Below are positions 40,495 to 57,715 of a DNA stretch of 64,000 nucleotides, in pieces (the first letter of the stretch is position 1; each line of letters begins with the position of its first letter). Below the pieces are notes generated by a model. The model ran no database searches, was not told the DNA's origin, and worked only from the letters and a program-made list of their open reading frames with translations. Source of the stretch: an uncultured Cycloclasticus sp. (GTDB lineage: Bacteria; Pseudomonadota; Gammaproteobacteria; Methylococcales; Cycloclasticaceae); NCBI GenBank assembly GCA_913060865.1, contig CAJXTU010000003.1:1-64000 (forward strand), written 5' to 3'. Made by a program: the position numbers and the translations under genes.

Positions 40495-41739
40495 ATGTCT
40501 ACTAGAAATCTAACAAACGAAGAAGTTAACTCTTTATTCCCTATTAGAAATTTTTCTGATAGCAGCAAACGACAACTTCAAGAAATGGCACAAACAGAAA
40601 GTTTCGATACCAATAGCATTTTATTTTCTGCCGGTAGTAATGACGACAAACAAGTATATCTTTTAGAAGGCAAGGCACGGCTTACTCTCTCTAGTAACCA
40701 AGAGAGAATCATTGAAGGTGGGCAAATGGAGGCTCGCTTCCCTATTGATAACAATACTCCACACCGAGCAACGGCTGTCGCAGTCGAACCAGTGACATTA
40801 CTTTCTATAAAGCGCTCAACGTTAGACGCGTTGATGAATGGCGTATCACTTGGTGAGAATACTGAGGTTGAAATCCTTGAAGAAAACGAAGATTCCTTAC
40901 TATATAACCAGCTCTATTTTGAAGTTACTCAGGAAATGCAAGCTGACAAATTGGAATTACCTTCTATTCCAGAAACCGCCATAAAAGTTCGAACGGCCAT
41001 TTCCGACCCTCATGCAACATCAGATAAAATAGCACGAATAACTCAACAGGACCCTGCAATTACCGCCCAACTAATTAAAGTTGCTAATAGCCCTTTATTT
41101 CGAGGGCGTGAACGAATTGAGGCTCTTCCACCTGCGATCACACGACTAGGACTAAAAGCCATTAGCAACCTCATCACTACCTTTACCATGAGAATGGTTT
41201 TTAATGCAAAAACAAAAGATGTTAAGGAATTAATTTCAGCACTCTGGTTGCATAGCCGAGATGTTGCTGGAATATGCGCCATTATGGCTAAGAAACTTAA
41301 GGGCTTCAATACAGATAAAGCCATGTTAGCAGGCTTAATACACGACATTGGCGCCATACCCATTTTAACGCATGCTGATAAACACCCGAACTTAATAACC
41401 AATAAACGTGATGTACAGCATACCCTTGAAAAGCTAACACCTGTTATAGGAAAAATGGTGTTGAAAAAATGGAATTTTACTGAAGACTTTGTTGAGTTAG
41501 CCCTTAATGCCGAGAGTTGGGAGCGTAAAACTGATCAGCCTGCTAATTACACCGACTTGGTCATAGTTGCTCAATTACTCAGTTTTAGAAACACGCCTCT
41601 ACAAGAAAAGCATCCGGAGCCCTCAAGCGTTCCAGCTTATGAGCGTCTTAGCAAATTGCTCAAGGACCCCAGTGACTCAATCGATGTTATAGAGAATGCA
41701 CAAGAAGAACTCGCTAACATAAAACAACTGTTCAACTAA
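40495..41739 (+). CDS. HDOD domain protein with cNMP-binding-like N-terminus
   Basis: The 414-residue protein begins with a degenerate cyclic-nucleotide-binding-like domain (about 15-120, including ILFSAGSNDDKQVYLLEG and ATAVAVEPVTLLSIKRS). It continues with an HDOD domain at about 150-350 (LPSIPETAIKVRTAISDP, ITQQDPAITAQLIKVANSP, MLAGLIHDIGAIPIL). HDOD proteins act in signalling and lack full HD hydrolase metal sites. It starts a plus-strand run with a FliK-like and a mini-FlhB gene, pointing to flagellar or surface regulation. Ligand and partners are unknown. Confidence 0.88.
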   Translation: MSTRNLTNEEVNSLFPIRNFSDSSKRQLQEMAQTESFDTNSILFSAGSNDDKQVYLLEGKARLTLSSNQERIIEGGQMEARFPIDNNTPHRATAVAVEPVTLLSIKRSTLDALMNGVSLGENTEVEILEENEDSLLYNQLYFEVTQEMQADKLELPSIPETAIKVRTAISDPHATSDKIARITQQDPAITAQLIKVANSPLFRGRERIEALPPAITRLGLKAISNLITTFTMRMVFNAKTKDVKELISALWLHSRDVAGICAIMAKKLKGFNTDKAMLAGLIHDIGAIPILTHADKHPNLITNKRDVQHTLEKLTPVIGKMVLKKWNFTEDFVELALNAESWERKTDQPANYTDLVIVAQLLSFRNTPLQEKHPEPSSVPAYERLSKLLKDPSDSIDVIENAQEELANIKQLFN

Positions 41740-41756
41740 GTTGCGGCTTAGATTCT

Positions 41757-43067
41757 TTGGAGATACCCAGTAACTTTAGCAGTCCAATATTAGAGACTGC
41801 GAAATCAACATTAACCCTTGATAAACTACAGACTGGCCAATCTACACAGGCTAAAATTATCCAGCTGTTACCCAACAAAACTGACATTATTATTCGCCTA
41901 GGGAATCAGACTCTTCAAGCTAAAACTAGTGTCCCAGTCACCGTTGGTGAAACTATTAACGTATTGGTAGAAAAAACGGCATCAGAACTTATCCTTAAGG
42001 TAAAACCTCCTATCCAACAAGCAAGCATTATTGACGCTAGCTTGCGCCGATTAATTCCAAAGCAAACACCGGTTAATGAGTTTCAACACCCTCTAAAGCG
42101 TGTCTTTACAAGTATTAACCAGCAAACTTTATTAACCACTAGTCCTACTGCTAGTTCTCATGCTCAAGAGCTCACATCTCAATCAATGCAGATCAAGCGG
42201 TTAGCCGTAAGCATTCTCCAGTCATTGCCCGATCAAAAGAAACTTGCATCTAGCGAGGGCTTTAAGAGTGCCCTACAAAACTCAGGCATGTTTTTAGAAC
42301 CTAAATTACGACAAGCACTATTGGAGAATAATGCGACCCTAAATACAACTACTCATGTTATAAAAAAAAGCCTCACACTTGGCCAAAATCCATTACTGCC
42401 AATTAACCAAGCCCCTATTGGCTTTACTCAAGTTGACCTAAAAAGCAATCTTATTAAACTTATTCAGTTATTAAAAGCTTGGCCAAAAGCAACAGTAAAC
42501 ACCCCTCAGCCAACAGGTCAAAACCCTCTTCCAATACCAATCAAATCACCCGCTTCTATCGCACAAACAATAAACCCAGCCTTATTATTAGAAAATCAAA
42601 TAAAGGAGCTAATCAACAAAACAGAAGGTAGTGTTGCAAAAATCACCTTAAACCAATTAGCTAGCTCCCATACTGAGAACACTGGCAACCGCCAAACTTG
42701 GCAAGTTGAAATTCCGTTTTTAAATCATCATGCTTCTGAATCCGTGTTTTTAAAAATTGAGCAAGAAGACTCACCCACAACACAAGACAAAGATGTCGAA
42801 CAGAAATGGACTGTTTCTCTGGAGATGAACCCACCAAAACTTGGCTTAATTAAGAACAAACTAAGCATAAATAACCAGCAAATTGATGCCAATTTTTGGG
42901 CCGAAAGCCCAGAAACAAAAAACTTAATTCAACGTCATTTAAGTTTATTTAAAGAGCAACTCACTCGCGCTAACTTACAACCCGAGCGCATCCAAGTTAG
43001 CAATGGGCCCGACCCGGTCATTCAGCCAGTAAAGCCCAGCACGTCTATCTTAAGTGAGAAGGCATAA
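41757..43067 (+). CDS. FliK-like hook-length control family protein (second copy)
   Basis: This 436-residue protein has a low-complexity, Gln/Thr/Pro-rich body and a C-terminal globular region. That region includes WQVEIPFLNHHASESVFLKI, KWTVSLEMNPPKLGLIKNKL and LIQRHLSLFKEQLTRANLQP, which resembles the Flg_hook domain of FliK. The start codon is TTG with gattctttgg around it, and no ATG fits. It is distinct from the larger cluster's own FliK (56507-57715). Its stop overlaps the next start by one base (TAATG), so it is coupled to the small FlhB-like protein. Confidence 0.78.
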   Translation: MEIPSNFSSPILETAKSTLTLDKLQTGQSTQAKIIQLLPNKTDIIIRLGNQTLQAKTSVPVTVGETINVLVEKTASELILKVKPPIQQASIIDASLRRLIPKQTPVNEFQHPLKRVFTSINQQTLLTTSPTASSHAQELTSQSMQIKRLAVSILQSLPDQKKLASSEGFKSALQNSGMFLEPKLRQALLENNATLNTTTHVIKKSLTLGQNPLLPINQAPIGFTQVDLKSNLIKLIQLLKAWPKATVNTPQPTGQNPLPIPIKSPASIAQTINPALLLENQIKELINKTEGSVAKITLNQLASSHTENTGNRQTWQVEIPFLNHHASESVFLKIEQEDSPTTQDKDVEQKWTVSLEMNPPKLGLIKNKLSINNQQIDANFWAESPETKNLIQRHLSLFKEQLTRANLQPERIQVSNGPDPVIQPVKPSTSILSEKA

Positions 43068-43354
43068 TGACTGACATTATTAACCCTGCCGATATCGCCG
43101 TAGCGTTAAAATACGATGGTCAAAACGCACCAACAATAACCGCCAAAGGCAGTGGGAGTCTCGCTCAAGAAATTATTGACCTTGCCATTGCTAATGATAT
43201 CCCATTGGACAACAACCCAGAGCTAGTAAAGATTCTCAGCAGTATCCCCTTGGGAGAAGAAATACCTGAGGCCTTATACATTGCAGTTGCAGAAGTTATA
43301 GCGTTTGCTTATTTACTATCCGACAAAATACCGGATAACGTTTCTAACAAGTAA
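43067..43354 (+). CDS. Small FlhB C-domain-like protein (FhlB type)
   Basis: The 95-residue protein matches the cytoplasmic C-terminal domain of FlhB: NPADIAVALKYDG, APTITAKGSGSLAQEIIDLA, IPLDNNPELVKILSSIPLGE, and IPEALYIAVAEVIAFAYLL. The true FlhB in this window (50900-52045) has NPTHFAIALKYEEG at the same place. Here the self-cleavage motif NPTH is replaced by NPAD, and no membrane part exists. Similar short proteins can replace the FlhB fragment in some bacteria. It follows the FliK-like gene with a one-base overlap and ends 2 bases from the convergent DUF2802 gene. Confidence 0.86.
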   Translation: MTDIINPADIAVALKYDGQNAPTITAKGSGSLAQEIIDLAIANDIPLDNNPELVKILSSIPLGEEIPEALYIAVAEVIAFAYLLSDKIPDNVSNK

Positions 43355-43356
43355 CA

Positions 43357-43749
43357 CTACGCTTTATGTAAACGAATCAGGAGGCCCGCCTCATCCACCG
43401 TTAAATGAAACTTCTCGACAATTTCTTCTATACCAGCGCCTTTTTGCGCCATTTCAATCGCACCTTGAAATTCCTGTAAGTGCTCAAAAGAGTCGCTTTC
43501 TTCCAGTTCTTCTAAACGCTCAATTAAGTTACGAACTCGGCGTTCAGTTCCACCAACACGCTCATCAACCCCTAAGCCACTCGCACAAAGCGCTGAAACG
43601 TCATGCTGCACCGTTTCTATCTTTTTACATACCTCAGCCACCTTAGCCTCTAAAGACTTATTCAAGCGTTGCATTTTAAATAGAGCAATGAATAACATAA
43701 CAATAGCCACAAAGAAAAAAACACCCAAGATCACAATATATAGTTCCAT
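43357..43749 (-). CDS. DUF2802 membrane-anchored protein
   Basis: The 130-residue protein has one N-terminal membrane segment (YIVILGVFFFVAIVMLFIAL), a coiled coil (LNKSLEAKVAEVCKKIETVQ), and a C-terminal helical part (VEKFHLTVDEAGLLIRLHKA). The last part resembles the helix-turn-helix-like end of DUF2802 proteins found in polar flagellar/chemotaxis clusters. Its start overlaps the stop of the 53-residue upstream frame (TGATG), so it is translationally coupled. Function is unknown; a scaffold near the pole is plausible but unproven. Confidence 0.84.
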   Translation of the reverse strand: MELYIVILGVFFFVAIVMLFIALFKMQRLNKSLEAKVAEVCKKIETVQHDVSALCASGLGVDERVGGTERRVRNLIERLEELEESDSFEHLQEFQGAIEMAQKGAGIEEIVEKFHLTVDEAGLLIRLHKA

Positions 43750-48785: not shown

Positions 48786-50876
48786 TTAACCATTTTGCCC
48801 AACACTCCCAACAACACGCACTTGCCTGTCCTCAGGTATTTCGTTGTACGACAAAACATTTAACGTTGAGATGGAATGACGAACAAAGTGAGCCAACCAA
48901 GGACGCAAAAAGCCAGACACCAGAAGTACGGCACTTTTACCTTCCATTTCTAGTTTCTGAGTACTTTCTTGTAATGCGCTTATCATTCTTTCTGCTAATC
49001 CTGGTTCAAGTCCTGCGCTACCATCTTCTGACGCTTGTAAGCTTTGCTGCAATAAGCGTTCCAAATCTGGATCTAAAGTAATGACTGATAATTCACTGTC
49101 TAAGCCACTGATTTTCTGGACAATTGACCGACCTAATGCAATTCTAACTGCCGCTGTTAGCGCGCCAGCATCTTGACTAATTCGGCCGTGCTCAATCAAT
49201 GTTTCAGCTACTGTTCGCATATCACGAACGGGAATATTTTCCTGTAACAAGTTTTGCAGTACTTTTACAACGGCCCCTAATGAAATGGTTTCAGGGACTA
49301 AATCTTCGACTAATTTCGGTGCGGATTTTTTCAAGGTATCGAGCATTTGTTGCACTTCTTCATGGCCTAATAATTCATGCGCATGCGTCTGAATGATTTG
49401 GCTTAAATGTGTTGCCACAACGGTGCCTGGGTCAACCACGGTATAACCCATCGTTTGTGCTTGGTCTTTTTGCCCTGAATCAATCCAAATAGCATCCAAA
49501 CCAAAGGCGGGGTCTTTTGTTGCTATCCCTTGAATATCTCCAAACACTTGGCCTGGGTTAATCGCTAACTCCCTATCGGGATGAATTTCTATTTCTCCAA
49601 TATTGACACCCATCAAGGTCAAACGATACACATTCGGTGCTAAATCTAAATTGTCACGAATATGCACGGAAGGGATTAAAAACCCTAGCTCTTGGGATAA
49701 TTTTTTACGAACGCCTTTAATTCGAGACATCAACTCACCACCTTGAGTTTTATCCACTAACGGTATTAAACGGTATCCGACTTCTAAACCGATCATATCC
49801 ACCGGTGCCACATCATCCCAAGATAGCTCTTTAGGTTCATCAGGCAAGGCTTGAACCAGTGGCTCTACTTCATCAGACTCCATTTCTCCCAACGATTGTT
49901 TTTTGTAAACTGAATACGCGACGTAACCTAAAGCAGACGATAATAGAATAAAAACTACATTTGGCATTCCAGGAATCAAGCCTAATGCACCAATAATCGC
50001 AGCAGCGATAGCTAATGCCTTGGGGTTACTTAACACCTGTAAATTTACCTGCTCACCCATATCTTGATTGCTATTGACCCGAGTGACAATAATCGCTGTT
50101 GCGGTGGATAGTAACAAGCCTGGAATTTGTGCCACTAGGCCATCACCAATCGTTAACAAGGTGTAATATTCCATGGCTTGTGAAAATGGCAAATCATGCT
50201 GAATAACCCCAACACCTAAGCCACCCACAATATTGATTAATAAAATCAGAATACCGGCAACAGCATCACCTCGAACAAACTTACTGGCACCGTCCATTGA
50301 CCCATAAAAATCAGCTTCTTGACTGATTTCTTTGCGCCGATCACGTGCTTCATCTTGCGTTAGTAAACCTGCATTTAAGTCAGCATCGATCGCCATTTGT
50401 TTACCTGGCATCGCATCCAATGTAAAACGAGCACTCACTTCTGAAACCCGCCCCGCACCTTTTGTAACAACCACAAAATTAATAATAATCAGAATACTAA
50501 AAACGACTAAACCGACTGCATAATTACCGCCAATAACAAACGCCCCAAACGCTTCAATCACCTTACCGGCCGCATCACCACCATTATGCCCTTCAAGCAA
50601 AACAACTCGTGTAGATGCCACGTTTAAACTAAGCCGTAACAGGGTAGCCACTAATAAGAAGCTTGGGAAAACGGCAAAATCTAAGGGTCGTAAGGCATAC
50701 ACTACAACCAATAAAACAATCAATGATAGTGCGATATTAAAGGTAAAAAATATATCTAATAAAAAGGGTGGTAATGGCAACACGAGCATCGCCAATATCA
50801 CCATAATTAAAATGGGTGCGCCTAAGCCATTCCGCGCAAAATCTAATAATAGTTTAGAAATATCGTTAAAGTTCAT
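48786..50876 (-). CDS. flhA: Flagellar export apparatus protein FlhA
   Basis: FlhA is the large nonameric export gate component. The 696-residue protein has about eight membrane segments in the first 330 residues, including FPSFLLVATLLRLSLNVAST and GDGLVAQIPGLLLSTATAII. The charged cytoplasmic loop has VSEVSARFTLDAMPGKQMAI. The C-terminal cytoplasmic ring domain docks substrate chaperones. Length is typical. It lies 23 bases after flhB in the large minus-strand operon, with flhF behind it. Confidence 0.97.
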   Translation of the reverse strand: MNFNDISKLLLDFARNGLGAPILIMVILAMLVLPLPPFLLDIFFTFNIALSLIVLLVVVYALRPLDFAVFPSFLLVATLLRLSLNVASTRVVLLEGHNGGDAAGKVIEAFGAFVIGGNYAVGLVVFSILIIINFVVVTKGAGRVSEVSARFTLDAMPGKQMAIDADLNAGLLTQDEARDRRKEISQEADFYGSMDGASKFVRGDAVAGILILLINIVGGLGVGVIQHDLPFSQAMEYYTLLTIGDGLVAQIPGLLLSTATAIIVTRVNSNQDMGEQVNLQVLSNPKALAIAAAIIGALGLIPGMPNVVFILLSSALGYVAYSVYKKQSLGEMESDEVEPLVQALPDEPKELSWDDVAPVDMIGLEVGYRLIPLVDKTQGGELMSRIKGVRKKLSQELGFLIPSVHIRDNLDLAPNVYRLTLMGVNIGEIEIHPDRELAINPGQVFGDIQGIATKDPAFGLDAIWIDSGQKDQAQTMGYTVVDPGTVVATHLSQIIQTHAHELLGHEEVQQMLDTLKKSAPKLVEDLVPETISLGAVVKVLQNLLQENIPVRDMRTVAETLIEHGRISQDAGALTAAVRIALGRSIVQKISGLDSELSVITLDPDLERLLQQSLQASEDGSAGLEPGLAERMISALQESTQKLEMEGKSAVLLVSGFLRPWLAHFVRHSISTLNVLSYNEIPEDRQVRVVGSVGQNG

Positions 50877-50899: not shown

Positions 50900-52045
50900 T
50901 TACTGTGTTTTATTGGCATATTTTTTATATTCATCCGGAATAGATATATCGCTAGGCGCTTCCGGTTTTTTCCAGCGTTTTTCTGTTGCCATTTTCAACT
51001 GATATACATACGCCAGCACTTGAGCAACTGCTAAATACAAACCCTTTGGAACTTCTTGATCAATCTCTGTCGTAAAGAATAGAGCTCTTGCCAAAGGTGG
51101 GGCAGAAACCAGCGTCACACCATGGCCAACGGCAATATTCCTAATGTTGGCCGCTATTAGGTCCGCACCTTTAGCCACTACGATTGGCGCGCCATTACCA
51201 CCTTCTTCATATTTCAACGCTATCGCAAAATGTGTAGGGTTAGTCACAATAACATCAGCCTGAGGAACCGCCTCTAGCATTCTGCCTTGCGACATCTCTT
51301 GCTGTAATTGACGTACTTTGCCTTTTACTTCTGGTCTACCTTCGGTTTGCTTCATTTCATCCTTAACTTCTTGAAGCGTCATTTTGAGTTTCTTTTTGTA
51401 TTCCCATAGACTAAATGGCACATCAATCGCAACAACCAACAATAAAGATGCGCACAAAACAACAAATGCTAGGGTCATCACATCACTTGCTCGCAACAGC
51501 GCATCCTCTAAAGGTAATCGGCTAAGGTAGATAAACTCGGAAAGGTAATTATTAACCAATAAGGCCATGATCCCCAGCACCAGACCAAATTTTAATAATG
51601 ACTTAACGAGCTCTATCAAACTACGCATTGCAAACATACGCTTAAAACCTTCAATCGGGTTCATCTTGCTCGCCTTGGGTGTAAAAGCTTCCGCACTAAA
51701 AGACCACCCCCCCATCGCAATAGGGCCCGCTAACGCGGCAATCACCATCGCCGCCAAAAAAGGCGCTACAAACAATAAAGCGTCTTGCATCGCAAGCTGT
51801 AATCCGTTTACCGTTTCTAACGGATCAAATAGACTGCTTCTTTCAATCGTGAACGCGCCTTCCATCACCTTCCACATACCTTGAATGATTCGGTCTCCCG
51901 TCATCCAAATCATCATTGAGCCCACCATTAAAACAACGACGGTATTAAGTTCTTTCGAGCGAGCAATATCCCCCTTTTTTCGGGCATCCTCCTCGCGTTT
52001 GGCGGTGGGTTCTTCGGTCTTTTCTTGGTCGCTATCATCTGCCAT
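50900..52045 (-). CDS. flhB: Flagellar export switch protein FlhB
   Basis: FlhB switches export from rod/hook to filament substrates. The 381-residue protein starts with EKTEEPTAKREEDARKKGDI. It has four membrane segments, a linker (MTLQEVKDEMKQTEGRPEVK), and the self-cleavage site NPTH in VIVTNPTHFAIALKYEEGG. The C-domain ends with a short basic tail. It follows fliR by one base. The small FlhB-like protein at 43067-43354 is a partial paralogue of its C-domain lacking NPTH. Confidence 0.97.
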   Translation of the reverse strand: MADDSDQEKTEEPTAKREEDARKKGDIARSKELNTVVVLMVGSMMIWMTGDRIIQGMWKVMEGAFTIERSSLFDPLETVNGLQLAMQDALLFVAPFLAAMVIAALAGPIAMGGWSFSAEAFTPKASKMNPIEGFKRMFAMRSLIELVKSLLKFGLVLGIMALLVNNYLSEFIYLSRLPLEDALLRASDVMTLAFVVLCASLLLVVAIDVPFSLWEYKKKLKMTLQEVKDEMKQTEGRPEVKGKVRQLQQEMSQGRMLEAVPQADVIVTNPTHFAIALKYEEGGNGAPIVVAKGADLIAANIRNIAVGHGVTLVSAPPLARALFFTTEIDQEVPKGLYLAVAQVLAYVYQLKMATEKRWKKPEAPSDISIPDEYKKYANKTQ

Positions 52046-56506: not shown

Positions 56507-57715
56507 TCAAGCAAACTCACTAAACAAGCCATTGTATTTTCGCCCTAGCTGATTATCTGATCCATCAAATAAAGCGCCTTCATCTTCCTGAGCAAACTCA
56601 TTTACCTGGCCCTGCTCGCCTTCTTGATTTTTTGACGCCTGATCACGTTGTTCTGCAAACGAATGCTGGGAAACATCAATATCTACCACATTCACATTTT
56701 GCTCGCTCAACATCTCACGTAGACGAGGTAGTGCAGCATCAATCGCTTCTCTGGTAGCTCCATGCTGCGCTGTAAAAGAAACCGTCGCTTGGTCATTTTG
56801 CATATGAATCCTTACTTCAACAGGCCCCATATGTTGTGGATTTAATCTAATTTGTGCACCACTCATCGATTGATTTACCACCCATTGCACACGCTGACTA
56901 AAATTTTCAGCCCACTTAGGATTACTTATTGGCGTGTCGAGTTGAAGACTCGCTCTATCTGTTGAGGGTTGTTGTATTTGCCCTGCACCTGTCATCAATA
57001 CGGCCATATTTGACAACGAGCTATCCGGACCTTTGGCAACATTAACTGCGCTAACCTCCTTAGTTAAAGCGTCGATCGAGTTAGTATCTGGCATTGTTTT
57101 TTGAACGCGACCTAGATGGATACCAAGCACCTCTGTGTGTTGAGATTTATCTAAGGACAATACAGCGGGTGTTGAATTAAAAAACTCAGAGGTACTACTT
57201 TTTCCATTAAACCTAACCTTTTCTGAAGTTAAATGACCCGCTGTTAACGCGGCTATTTGAACCGAAGACTCTTTTGCCTGACTCAATGGGTCAAATACTA
57301 TTGCCTTATTGGATAGATCTGAATTACCATCCTGTCCATCATTAAATATGGCTCCCAAATCTGCCGCCTGTGGCAATTCATTGCCGCTCGCAGCAACCTT
57401 GGAAACATCTACACCAAATGCCAGTATCTGCTCTGATTCCACTTCTTCAGTATCGACAGCATCAGCTGTTGTGGTTACTTTTTGCTCATTCTCACCATTA
57501 GCCAAAACCTTTGGCTTTCCTAGCTTCCCAGGTTTTTCTCCTGATACTGATGACGTTTCAGTACGTCTCGTATCAAGACGGTCAACATTTTTTTCTAAAT
57601 GCTCCGAAAACCCATGATTTCCCGATTTACTCGAATCACTCTTAGTTATATCGGCACCAGAACTTGTAGGATGACCCAATTGTGGGCTTAACATAGCGGG
57701 TACTTCCATTGTCAT
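56507..57715 (-). CDS. fliK: Flagellar hook-length control protein FliK
   Basis: FliK measures hook length and triggers the FlhB switch. The 402-residue protein has a long low-complexity N-terminal part (about 1-255) rich in Ser, Asp, Gln and Val, then the Flg_hook domain (about 270-360). This contains RVQWVVNQSMSGAQIRLNPQ, HMGPVEVRIHMQNDQATVSF, and ALPRLREMLSEQNVNVVDID. A ribosome site gggagag precedes either of two ATGs (57715 or 57709). It has its own sigma-54-type promoter and terminator and is not joined to fliL. A second FliK-like protein lies at 41757-43067. Confidence 0.92.
   Translation of the reverse strand: MTMEVPAMLSPQLGHPTSSGADITKSDSSKSGNHGFSEHLEKNVDRLDTRRTETSSVSGEKPGKLGKPKVLANGENEQKVTTTADAVDTEEVESEQILAFGVDVSKVAASGNELPQAADLGAIFNDGQDGNSDLSNKAIVFDPLSQAKESSVQIAALTAGHLTSEKVRFNGKSSTSEFFNSTPAVLSLDKSQHTEVLGIHLGRVQKTMPDTNSIDALTKEVSAVNVAKGPDSSLSNMAVLMTGAGQIQQPSTDRASLQLDTPISNPKWAENFSQRVQWVVNQSMSGAQIRLNPQHMGPVEVRIHMQNDQATVSFTAQHGATREAIDAALPRLREMLSEQNVNVVDIDVSQHSFAEQRDQASKNQEGEQGQVNEFAQEDEGALFDGSDNQLGRKYNGLFSEFA

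Follow-up and report, generated by a model that had tools for sequence, protein, structure and literature searches.

A conserved pair of a FliK-like protein and a free-standing FlhB C-terminal domain in Cycloclasticus: candidate partners at the flagellar export gate

The subject of this report is a three-gene cassette in an uncultured Cycloclasticus sp. The window, that is, the whole stretch of DNA analysed, comprises positions 1 to 64,000 of contig CAJXTU010000003.1 (assembly GCA_913060865.1). According to the open reading frame (ORF) calls, the cassette lies on one strand (+) across 40495-43354 and encodes a cyclic nucleotide monophosphate (cNMP)-binding/HDOD protein, a second FliK-family protein (FliK2), and a free-standing C-terminal domain of FlhB (mini-FlhB), in this order. 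The positions of the three genes and the one-base overlap of the last two agree with a preliminary description made from the sequence alone. That description recognized the HDOD domain of the signalling protein; the cNMP-binding domain was not named in it. The features are as follows.

40495..41739, + strand: cNMP-binding and HDOD signalling protein, 414 aa, first gene of the cassette (Pfam HDOD, E 3.9e-41; cNMP_binding, E 9.8e-9)
41757..43067, + strand: FliK2, second FliK-family protein, 436 aa, TTG start (Pfam Flg_hook, E 2.2e-16; start kept in congeners)
41835..42002, + strand: N-terminal beta domain of FliK2, about aa 27-82, not in FliK1 (strands at 29-82 in the AlphaFold2 (AF2) model; profile search)
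42792..43013, + strand: switch (T3S4/Flg_hook) core of FliK2, aa 346-419 (Pfam Flg_hook)
43047..43064, + strand: C-terminal hexapeptide ILSEKA of FliK2, after a variable linker (tail comparison)
43065..43069, + strand: TAATG, stop of FliK2 and start of mini-FlhB, one-base overlap (sequence)
43067..43354, + strand: mini-FlhB, a free FlhB_CC of 95 aa without the transmembrane part (Pfam, NCBIfam, alignment, fold match)
43082..43093, + strand: NPAD, replacing the FlhB autocleavage site NPTH (alignment with FlhB)
48786..50876, - strand: FlhA, the sole export-gate FlhA in the genome (profile search)
50900..52045, - strand: FlhB, the sole full-length copy in the genome, NPTH intact, the presumed target (profile search, alignment)
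56507..57715, - strand: FliK1, the ordinary FliK, 402 aa, tail LFSEFA (Flg_hook profile search)

The mini-FlhB matches only positions 255-334 of the 335-position Bac_export_2 profile (E 3e-20), which identifies it as a C-terminal piece of FlhB. The N-terminal transmembrane domain of full-length FlhB is absent, as judged from the coverage of the Pfam profile, and the alignment with the resident FlhB begins at the NPTH autocleavage site of the latter. Both the profile match and the alignment bear out the earlier assignment of a free-standing FlhB C-domain carrying NPAD in place of NPTH. Among the 37 cassette-type mini-FlhBs of the order, Asn is found in 32 and Pro in 33 at the cleavage-site motif; none has His, which is mostly replaced by Asp. 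The resident FlhBs of 21 genomes all possess the His (21/21), and the complete NPTH is present in 19/21. Judging from these alignments, NPAD is a feature of the subfamily, in which Asn-Pro is retained and His is replaced, and is not a local mutation. It should be mentioned that the resident FlhBs at the loci L265 and L267 read NPIH and NPVH, respectively, at this site.

The predicted structure of mini-FlhB (AF2) has a pLDDT of 81 and a pTM of 0.59, and it matches the FlhB_CC chains 3b1s and 3b0z (Aquifex, Salmonella) with E values of 5e-6 to 2e-5; the sequence match to FlhB_CC has an E value of 7e-22. The residues A21, P22, A75, and I78 are the equivalents of the pocket residues A286, P287, A341, and L344, the latter numbering being that in an excerpt of PMC13344023. 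Across 62 mini-FlhBs this early-substrate pocket is conserved as A in 54/62, P in 62/62, A in 61/62, and I or L in 62/62. Thus, the fold, the start point, and the early-substrate pocket are common to mini-FlhB and the FlhB_CC/FlhB_CCD cleavage product, whereas mini-FlhB is a separate gene product without a membrane part, retains Asn-Pro with Thr-His replaced, and has residues specific to its subfamily. These mini-specific residues are G30, D/N50, P61, E76, and F80, where FlhB has D, A, E, Q, and Y. In a tree of 98 rows, in which the columns are few and the inner order is weak, the mini-FlhBs are separated from the resident FlhBs by a branch of length 2.37 with 100/100 support. Because of the subfamily-specific positions and this branch, mini-FlhB is, on sequence grounds, an old family in its own right rather than a local copy of flhB.

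The best NCBIfam model for mini-FlhB is TIGR00789 flhB_rel ("FlhB-like flagellar biosynthesis protein"), which scores 75.2 bits, ahead of the FlhB models, yet below its curated cut-off of 117.35 bits. None of 299 genomes of the phylum reaches this cut-off, and matches to the model are found in B. subtilis. YlqG and YlqH of B. subtilis are presumably a comparable pair of FliK-like and FlhB-like neighbours, set beside the cassette here by description only; the open-access literature searched yielded no paper about them as a pair.

FliK2 was previously described as a second FliK-like protein, and this holds: its C-terminal Flg_hook core scores 59.9 bits against the Pfam cut-off of 29.8. The core fold resembles the switch domain of PscP (5cuk) and FliK_C (2rrl), the best E value being 4.5e-3 and none reaching 0.001 or below, and the sequence profile matches FliK_C (2rrl) with an E value of 1.6e-6. 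In the AF2 model (mean pLDDT of 79), a helical region and the N-terminal beta domain precede the core. A profile of this N-terminal domain detects 11/11 of the FliK2 proteins that do not adjoin a mini-FlhB and 26/28 of the paired FliKs at named loci, and 0/30 of the FliK1 proteins. An assignment of the domain as an oligonucleotide/oligosaccharide-binding (OB) fold was rejected, as the structure matches (RPA, eIF2alpha) were non-significant; the term beta domain is kept. The Flg_hook core and the terminal tail are shared with the ordinary FliK, whereas at the N-terminus FliK2 has the beta domain in place of the region usual in FliK. The pair was formerly called duplicated, which is misleading: since the mini-FlhBs and FlhBs are separated by the 100/100 branch and the N-terminal beta domain of FliK2 is absent in FliK1, the pair is not a recent duplication.

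The C-terminus of FliK2 was compared among 79 FliKs differing in the last 120 residues. Over the final six positions of FliK2 the entropy is 1.1-2.2 bits, compared with 2.6-3.5 in the preceding 18. Other FliK2 tails read LLDERA, LLDLRA, and ILDIRA, and the pattern [ILVFM][ILVFM][DSNE]xx[AITVSC]-COOH is found in 35/36 cassette-like FliK2 proteins, as against 0.45% of internal hexapeptides. The tail of FliK1 in the same genome, LFSEFA, resembles ILSEKA of FliK2. In general, 28/30 of the FliK1 proteins end in [FY]A, whereas K or R is mostly found at the next-to-last residue in FliK2. The possibility that the tail is a mere by-product of the Shine-Dalgarno sequence of the mini-FlhB gene was rejected as a full explanation, because several loci retain the peptide without a purine-rich stretch. 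Long open frames in G012, G029, and G359, considered as natural FliK-FlhB fusions, were interpreted as overlapping frames instead.

Both proteins are under purifying selection, the nonsynonymous divergence (dN) being far below the synonymous one (dS) in comparisons with five congeners. For mini-FlhB, dN is 0.04-0.12 and dS is 1.3-2.6; for FliK2, dN is 0.18-0.50 and dS is 1.2-2.5 or saturated. The nearest named relatives of mini-FlhB, among the best 80 of 327 relatives, are Cycloclasticus contigs, and the TTG/"MEIP" start of FliK2 recurs in congeners together with the gene order.

In the order, mini-FlhB is found in 72/76 genomes having any FlhB-type match. The gene neighbourhood was surveyed in 71 of its genomes besides that of the window: 34 from the family f8 and 37 from outside it. 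FliK adjoins mini-FlhB in 35/37 of the non-f8 genomes. One of the two exceptions (G046) is a contig that begins at mini-FlhB; the other (G068) is a metagenome-assembled genome (MAG) of a congener, 73% complete, in which FliK2 is internally deleted and the HDOD protein and mini-FlhB are still present (L127:2232-2864). The complete order of HDOD, FliK, and mini-FlhB is present in 29/37 of these genomes. In f8, with Methylomonas, Methylobacter, and others as named relatives, the lone mini-FlhB gene is typically beside the phosphatidylserine decarboxylase gene (psd), often with queF. At L069, L071, L072, L074, and other f8 loci it lies between queF and psd, often with an overlap of a few bases with psd, and a gene that we take to be smc-like diverges at these loci. 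Among the named loci (best 80 of 327 relatives), 51 are of the psd type, 17 have FliK, 11 have FliK and HDOD, and one has neither. At the level of the phylum, FliK adjoins mini-FlhB in 18/30 loci. No FliK was detected upstream of mini-FlhB at L088, L090, and L103, which belong to some other classes; there the mini-FlhB gene is just ahead of genes presumed from their sequences to be flgF/flgG-like.

The proposed module of HDOD, FliK, and mini-FlhB is present at this locus, but the HDOD protein is an occasional neighbour and no obligatory member of the pair, being upstream in only 11 of the 28 named loci where FliK adjoins mini-FlhB. Several other families of the order have HDOD proteins of about 290-300 aa in this position. 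The cNMP-binding domain carried by the HDOD protein of this genus is probably missing from them, because they are shorter; this is judged by length only.

A joint function of the two proteins would predict two FliKs in genomes with mini-FlhB, whether or not the genes are neighbours. Indeed, at least two Flg_hook proteins are found in 29/29 mini-positive genomes of the order and in 34/35 of the class, 63/64 in total, and in all 11 f8 genomes examined the second FliK is located elsewhere in the genome and bears the FliK2 N-terminal domain. The mini-positive set of the class consisted of 35 genomes whose listed matches included a short FlhB-type frame; for the mini-negative set, 33 genomes of the class had a single FlhB-type match, and 32 of them were used (G381 was left out), plus the drafts G129 and G132. 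Exactly one Flg_hook protein is found in 3/3 mini-negative flagellated genomes of the order and in 31/32 of the class, while G132 has two and G129 none; after pooling, one FliK-type protein is found in 34/36. Fisher's test on 63/1 versus 2/34, with G129 left out and no correction for kinship, gives p = 4e-23. The contrast recurs within the families f4, f8, f10, and f33, and joint gain or loss of the pair has therefore probably happened several times. Conserved pairing across genomes, on which the preliminary description had made its proposal depend, is thus present. Among the exceptions to this coupling, G301 proved on re-examination to have a divergent mini-FlhB (33.6 bits) at the end of its second FliK. 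Two genomes with mini-FlhB but no FlhA or full FlhB (G020 and G069) had suggested that mini-FlhB is kept without flagella. This idea was dropped because the rod-protein control matched in both (2 and 5 matches); they are probably drafts without part of the flagellar cluster.

The identities of the parts, the conserved adjacency and overlap, the joint presence and absence, and the conserved tail and pocket are established. Taken together with the analogy to Salmonella, they suggest with about even chances that FliK2 and mini-FlhB form a pair of dedicated partners acting on the single flagellar export gate of the cell, and the link to the flagellar export switch proposed earlier is the likeliest role. 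Salmonella is the best-studied case of the hook-to-filament switch. There, as stated in excerpts of a 2026 study (PMC13344023), FlhB_CCD keeps the gate in the early mode and docks early substrates, and the FliK-dependent loss of FlhB_CCD flips the switch, in a manner described as irreversible. The same excerpts put forward a model in which the fold formed by residues 301-350 of FliK imposes a pause, allowing the last five residues of FliK to engage FlhB_CCD.

The cassette encodes both of these actors a second time, FlhB_CC as a free protein and FliK complete with its core and tail, and for this reason a remover or antagonist role can be proposed for FliK2. The mini-FlhB would be a ready-made, membrane-free FlhB_CC, starting where FlhB cuts itself and retaining the pocket for early (rod/hook) substrates. 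It might bind early substrates, replace FlhB_CC at the gate, or both, so that the early (hook) export mode would be favoured. FliK2, produced in step with mini-FlhB, might bind it via the switch core and the tail, and so remove or neutralize it. The result would be a second, adjustable layer above the FliK1/FlhB switch. We infer the binding of the two proteins, its direction (hold or release), and an effect on hook length. A more specific form of this model, which seems rather unlikely, is a resettable second lock: after FliK1 ejects the original piece, a free FlhB_CC would re-dock and return the gate to early (hook) export, with FliK2 as its dedicated remover and, in Cycloclasticus, possibly with control by cNMP/HDOD. 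If this were true, the supposedly irreversible export switch would become adjustable. In many other gamma-proteobacteria, too, a free FlhB_CC is provided in trans and accompanied by a second FliK; nature has, in effect, set up the decisive experiment.

Several observations weigh against the dedicated pair. The equivalent of L344 is Ile in most mini-FlhBs and Leu in 21/21 of the FlhBs compared. FliK is not beside mini-FlhB in 30/34 of the f8 genomes and in 12 of the 30 loci of the phylum. In G303, mini-FlhB is preceded by a 727-aa ORF without a detected FliK core. Conversely, FliK2 is present and no mini-FlhB was found in G132, a draft of the genus g11 (L288) that also has two FlhAs and two FlhB-type hits. 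The tail pattern was drawn up post hoc, once the tails were known, and it is found in just 16/43 of the distant-type paired FliKs (score < 80 bits). Since the next-to-last residue of the tail differs between FliK1 and FliK2, the targets of the two may differ. In the promoter scans, sigma-54-like and sigma-70-like sites were not above the shuffled expectation, and co-regulation with the flagellar genes is unsupported.

The cassette may also be explained without a dedicated pair. The mini-FlhB might be a passive spare part that fills the seat upon loss of the C-terminal piece of FlhB, FliK2 being redundant. HP1575 of Helicobacter pylori is reportedly such a "spare part", to go by the title of Wand et al. 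(2006). The architecture of a free FlhB_CC, common to HP1575 and mini-FlhB, is in accord with this explanation, as is the conservation of the fold and the pocket of mini-FlhB. However, a spare part would need neither a second FliK that is present or absent jointly with it nor diagnostic residues of its own such as those at positions 30, 50, 61, 76, and 80, and this explanation is considered unlikely. Alternatively, the main role of mini-FlhB might be in the cytoplasm, as a chaperone of FliK2 or as a partner that sequesters it; mini-FlhB would then shield FlhB from the switch domain until release, without contact with the gate. The overlap of stop and start codons and the adjacency would suit a matched supply, and the lack of a transmembrane part and the joint presence with FliK2 are also compatible with it. 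On the other hand, the early-substrate pocket, which would not have to be involved in sequestration of FliK2, is kept almost without exception, and the genes are unlinked in f8. This alternative is therefore regarded as doubtful.

It had also been suggested that the pair could serve another secretion system. The FlhB and FliK families are common to injectisomes, and the HpaP profile of Pfam scores FliK2 just below its cut-off (22.3 versus 23.8 bits). However, the genome, of 2.43 Mb and 99.9% complete, has one FlhA, which is within the flagellar cluster of the window, one full FlhB, and two Flg_hook proteins. With one FlhA and one full FlhB, no second secretion system seems to be served, and service to an injectisome or a similar system is very improbable. 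Finally, the internal deletion of FliK2 in G068 might be taken as a sign that the pair is a decaying duplicate without function. This is extremely improbable in view of the strong purifying selection and the long-range conservation, and G068 is the incomplete MAG mentioned above. The observations of the preliminary description are thus confirmed, and its interpretation is partly supported.

Free FlhB_CC proteins and the FliK family are known already; less known is the obligate presence, alongside the former, of a second FliK that forms a type of its own. FlhX/HP1575 (flhB2) of Campylobacterota is, like mini-FlhB, a free-standing homologue of the FlhB C-terminus. The present system differs from it in that mini-FlhB is paired with a second FliK having a distinct N-terminal domain, besides the ordinary one; this comparison was made by description. 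In the parts of the literature consulted, flhX-fliK is mentioned for Nitratiruptor (PMC9321776), and actinobacterial and campylobacterial surveys list FlhX among the components. No study of such a FliK/FlhB-like pair in gamma-proteobacteria was found in the open-access literature, as covered by titles and the starts of abstracts, with subscription papers mostly outside; this silence is weak evidence of novelty.

The setting of the cassette is a flagellar neighbourhood, with a MotB-domain protein, FlhA, and FlhB nearby in the window; other genes there are taken to be motA, fliA, flhG, flhF, and aroC. The cassette is flanked on one side by a methyltransferase gene on the opposite strand, presumably prmB, and on the other by a convergent gene:

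43357-43749, - strand: gene for a DUF2802 membrane protein, running towards the mini-FlhB gene and separated from it by two bases

A relationship of this neighbour to SwrB of B. subtilis was rejected, PF10975 having matches in 0/14 control genomes; it belongs to the FipA family instead. According to excerpts of PMC11620751, FipA has DUF2802 as its domain and acts together with FlhF in positioning the polar flagellum. A second type of pair is found at L060, L061, and L064, where FliK and mini-FlhB are in a stretch resembling a main flagellar cluster and the FliK is without the conserved tail.

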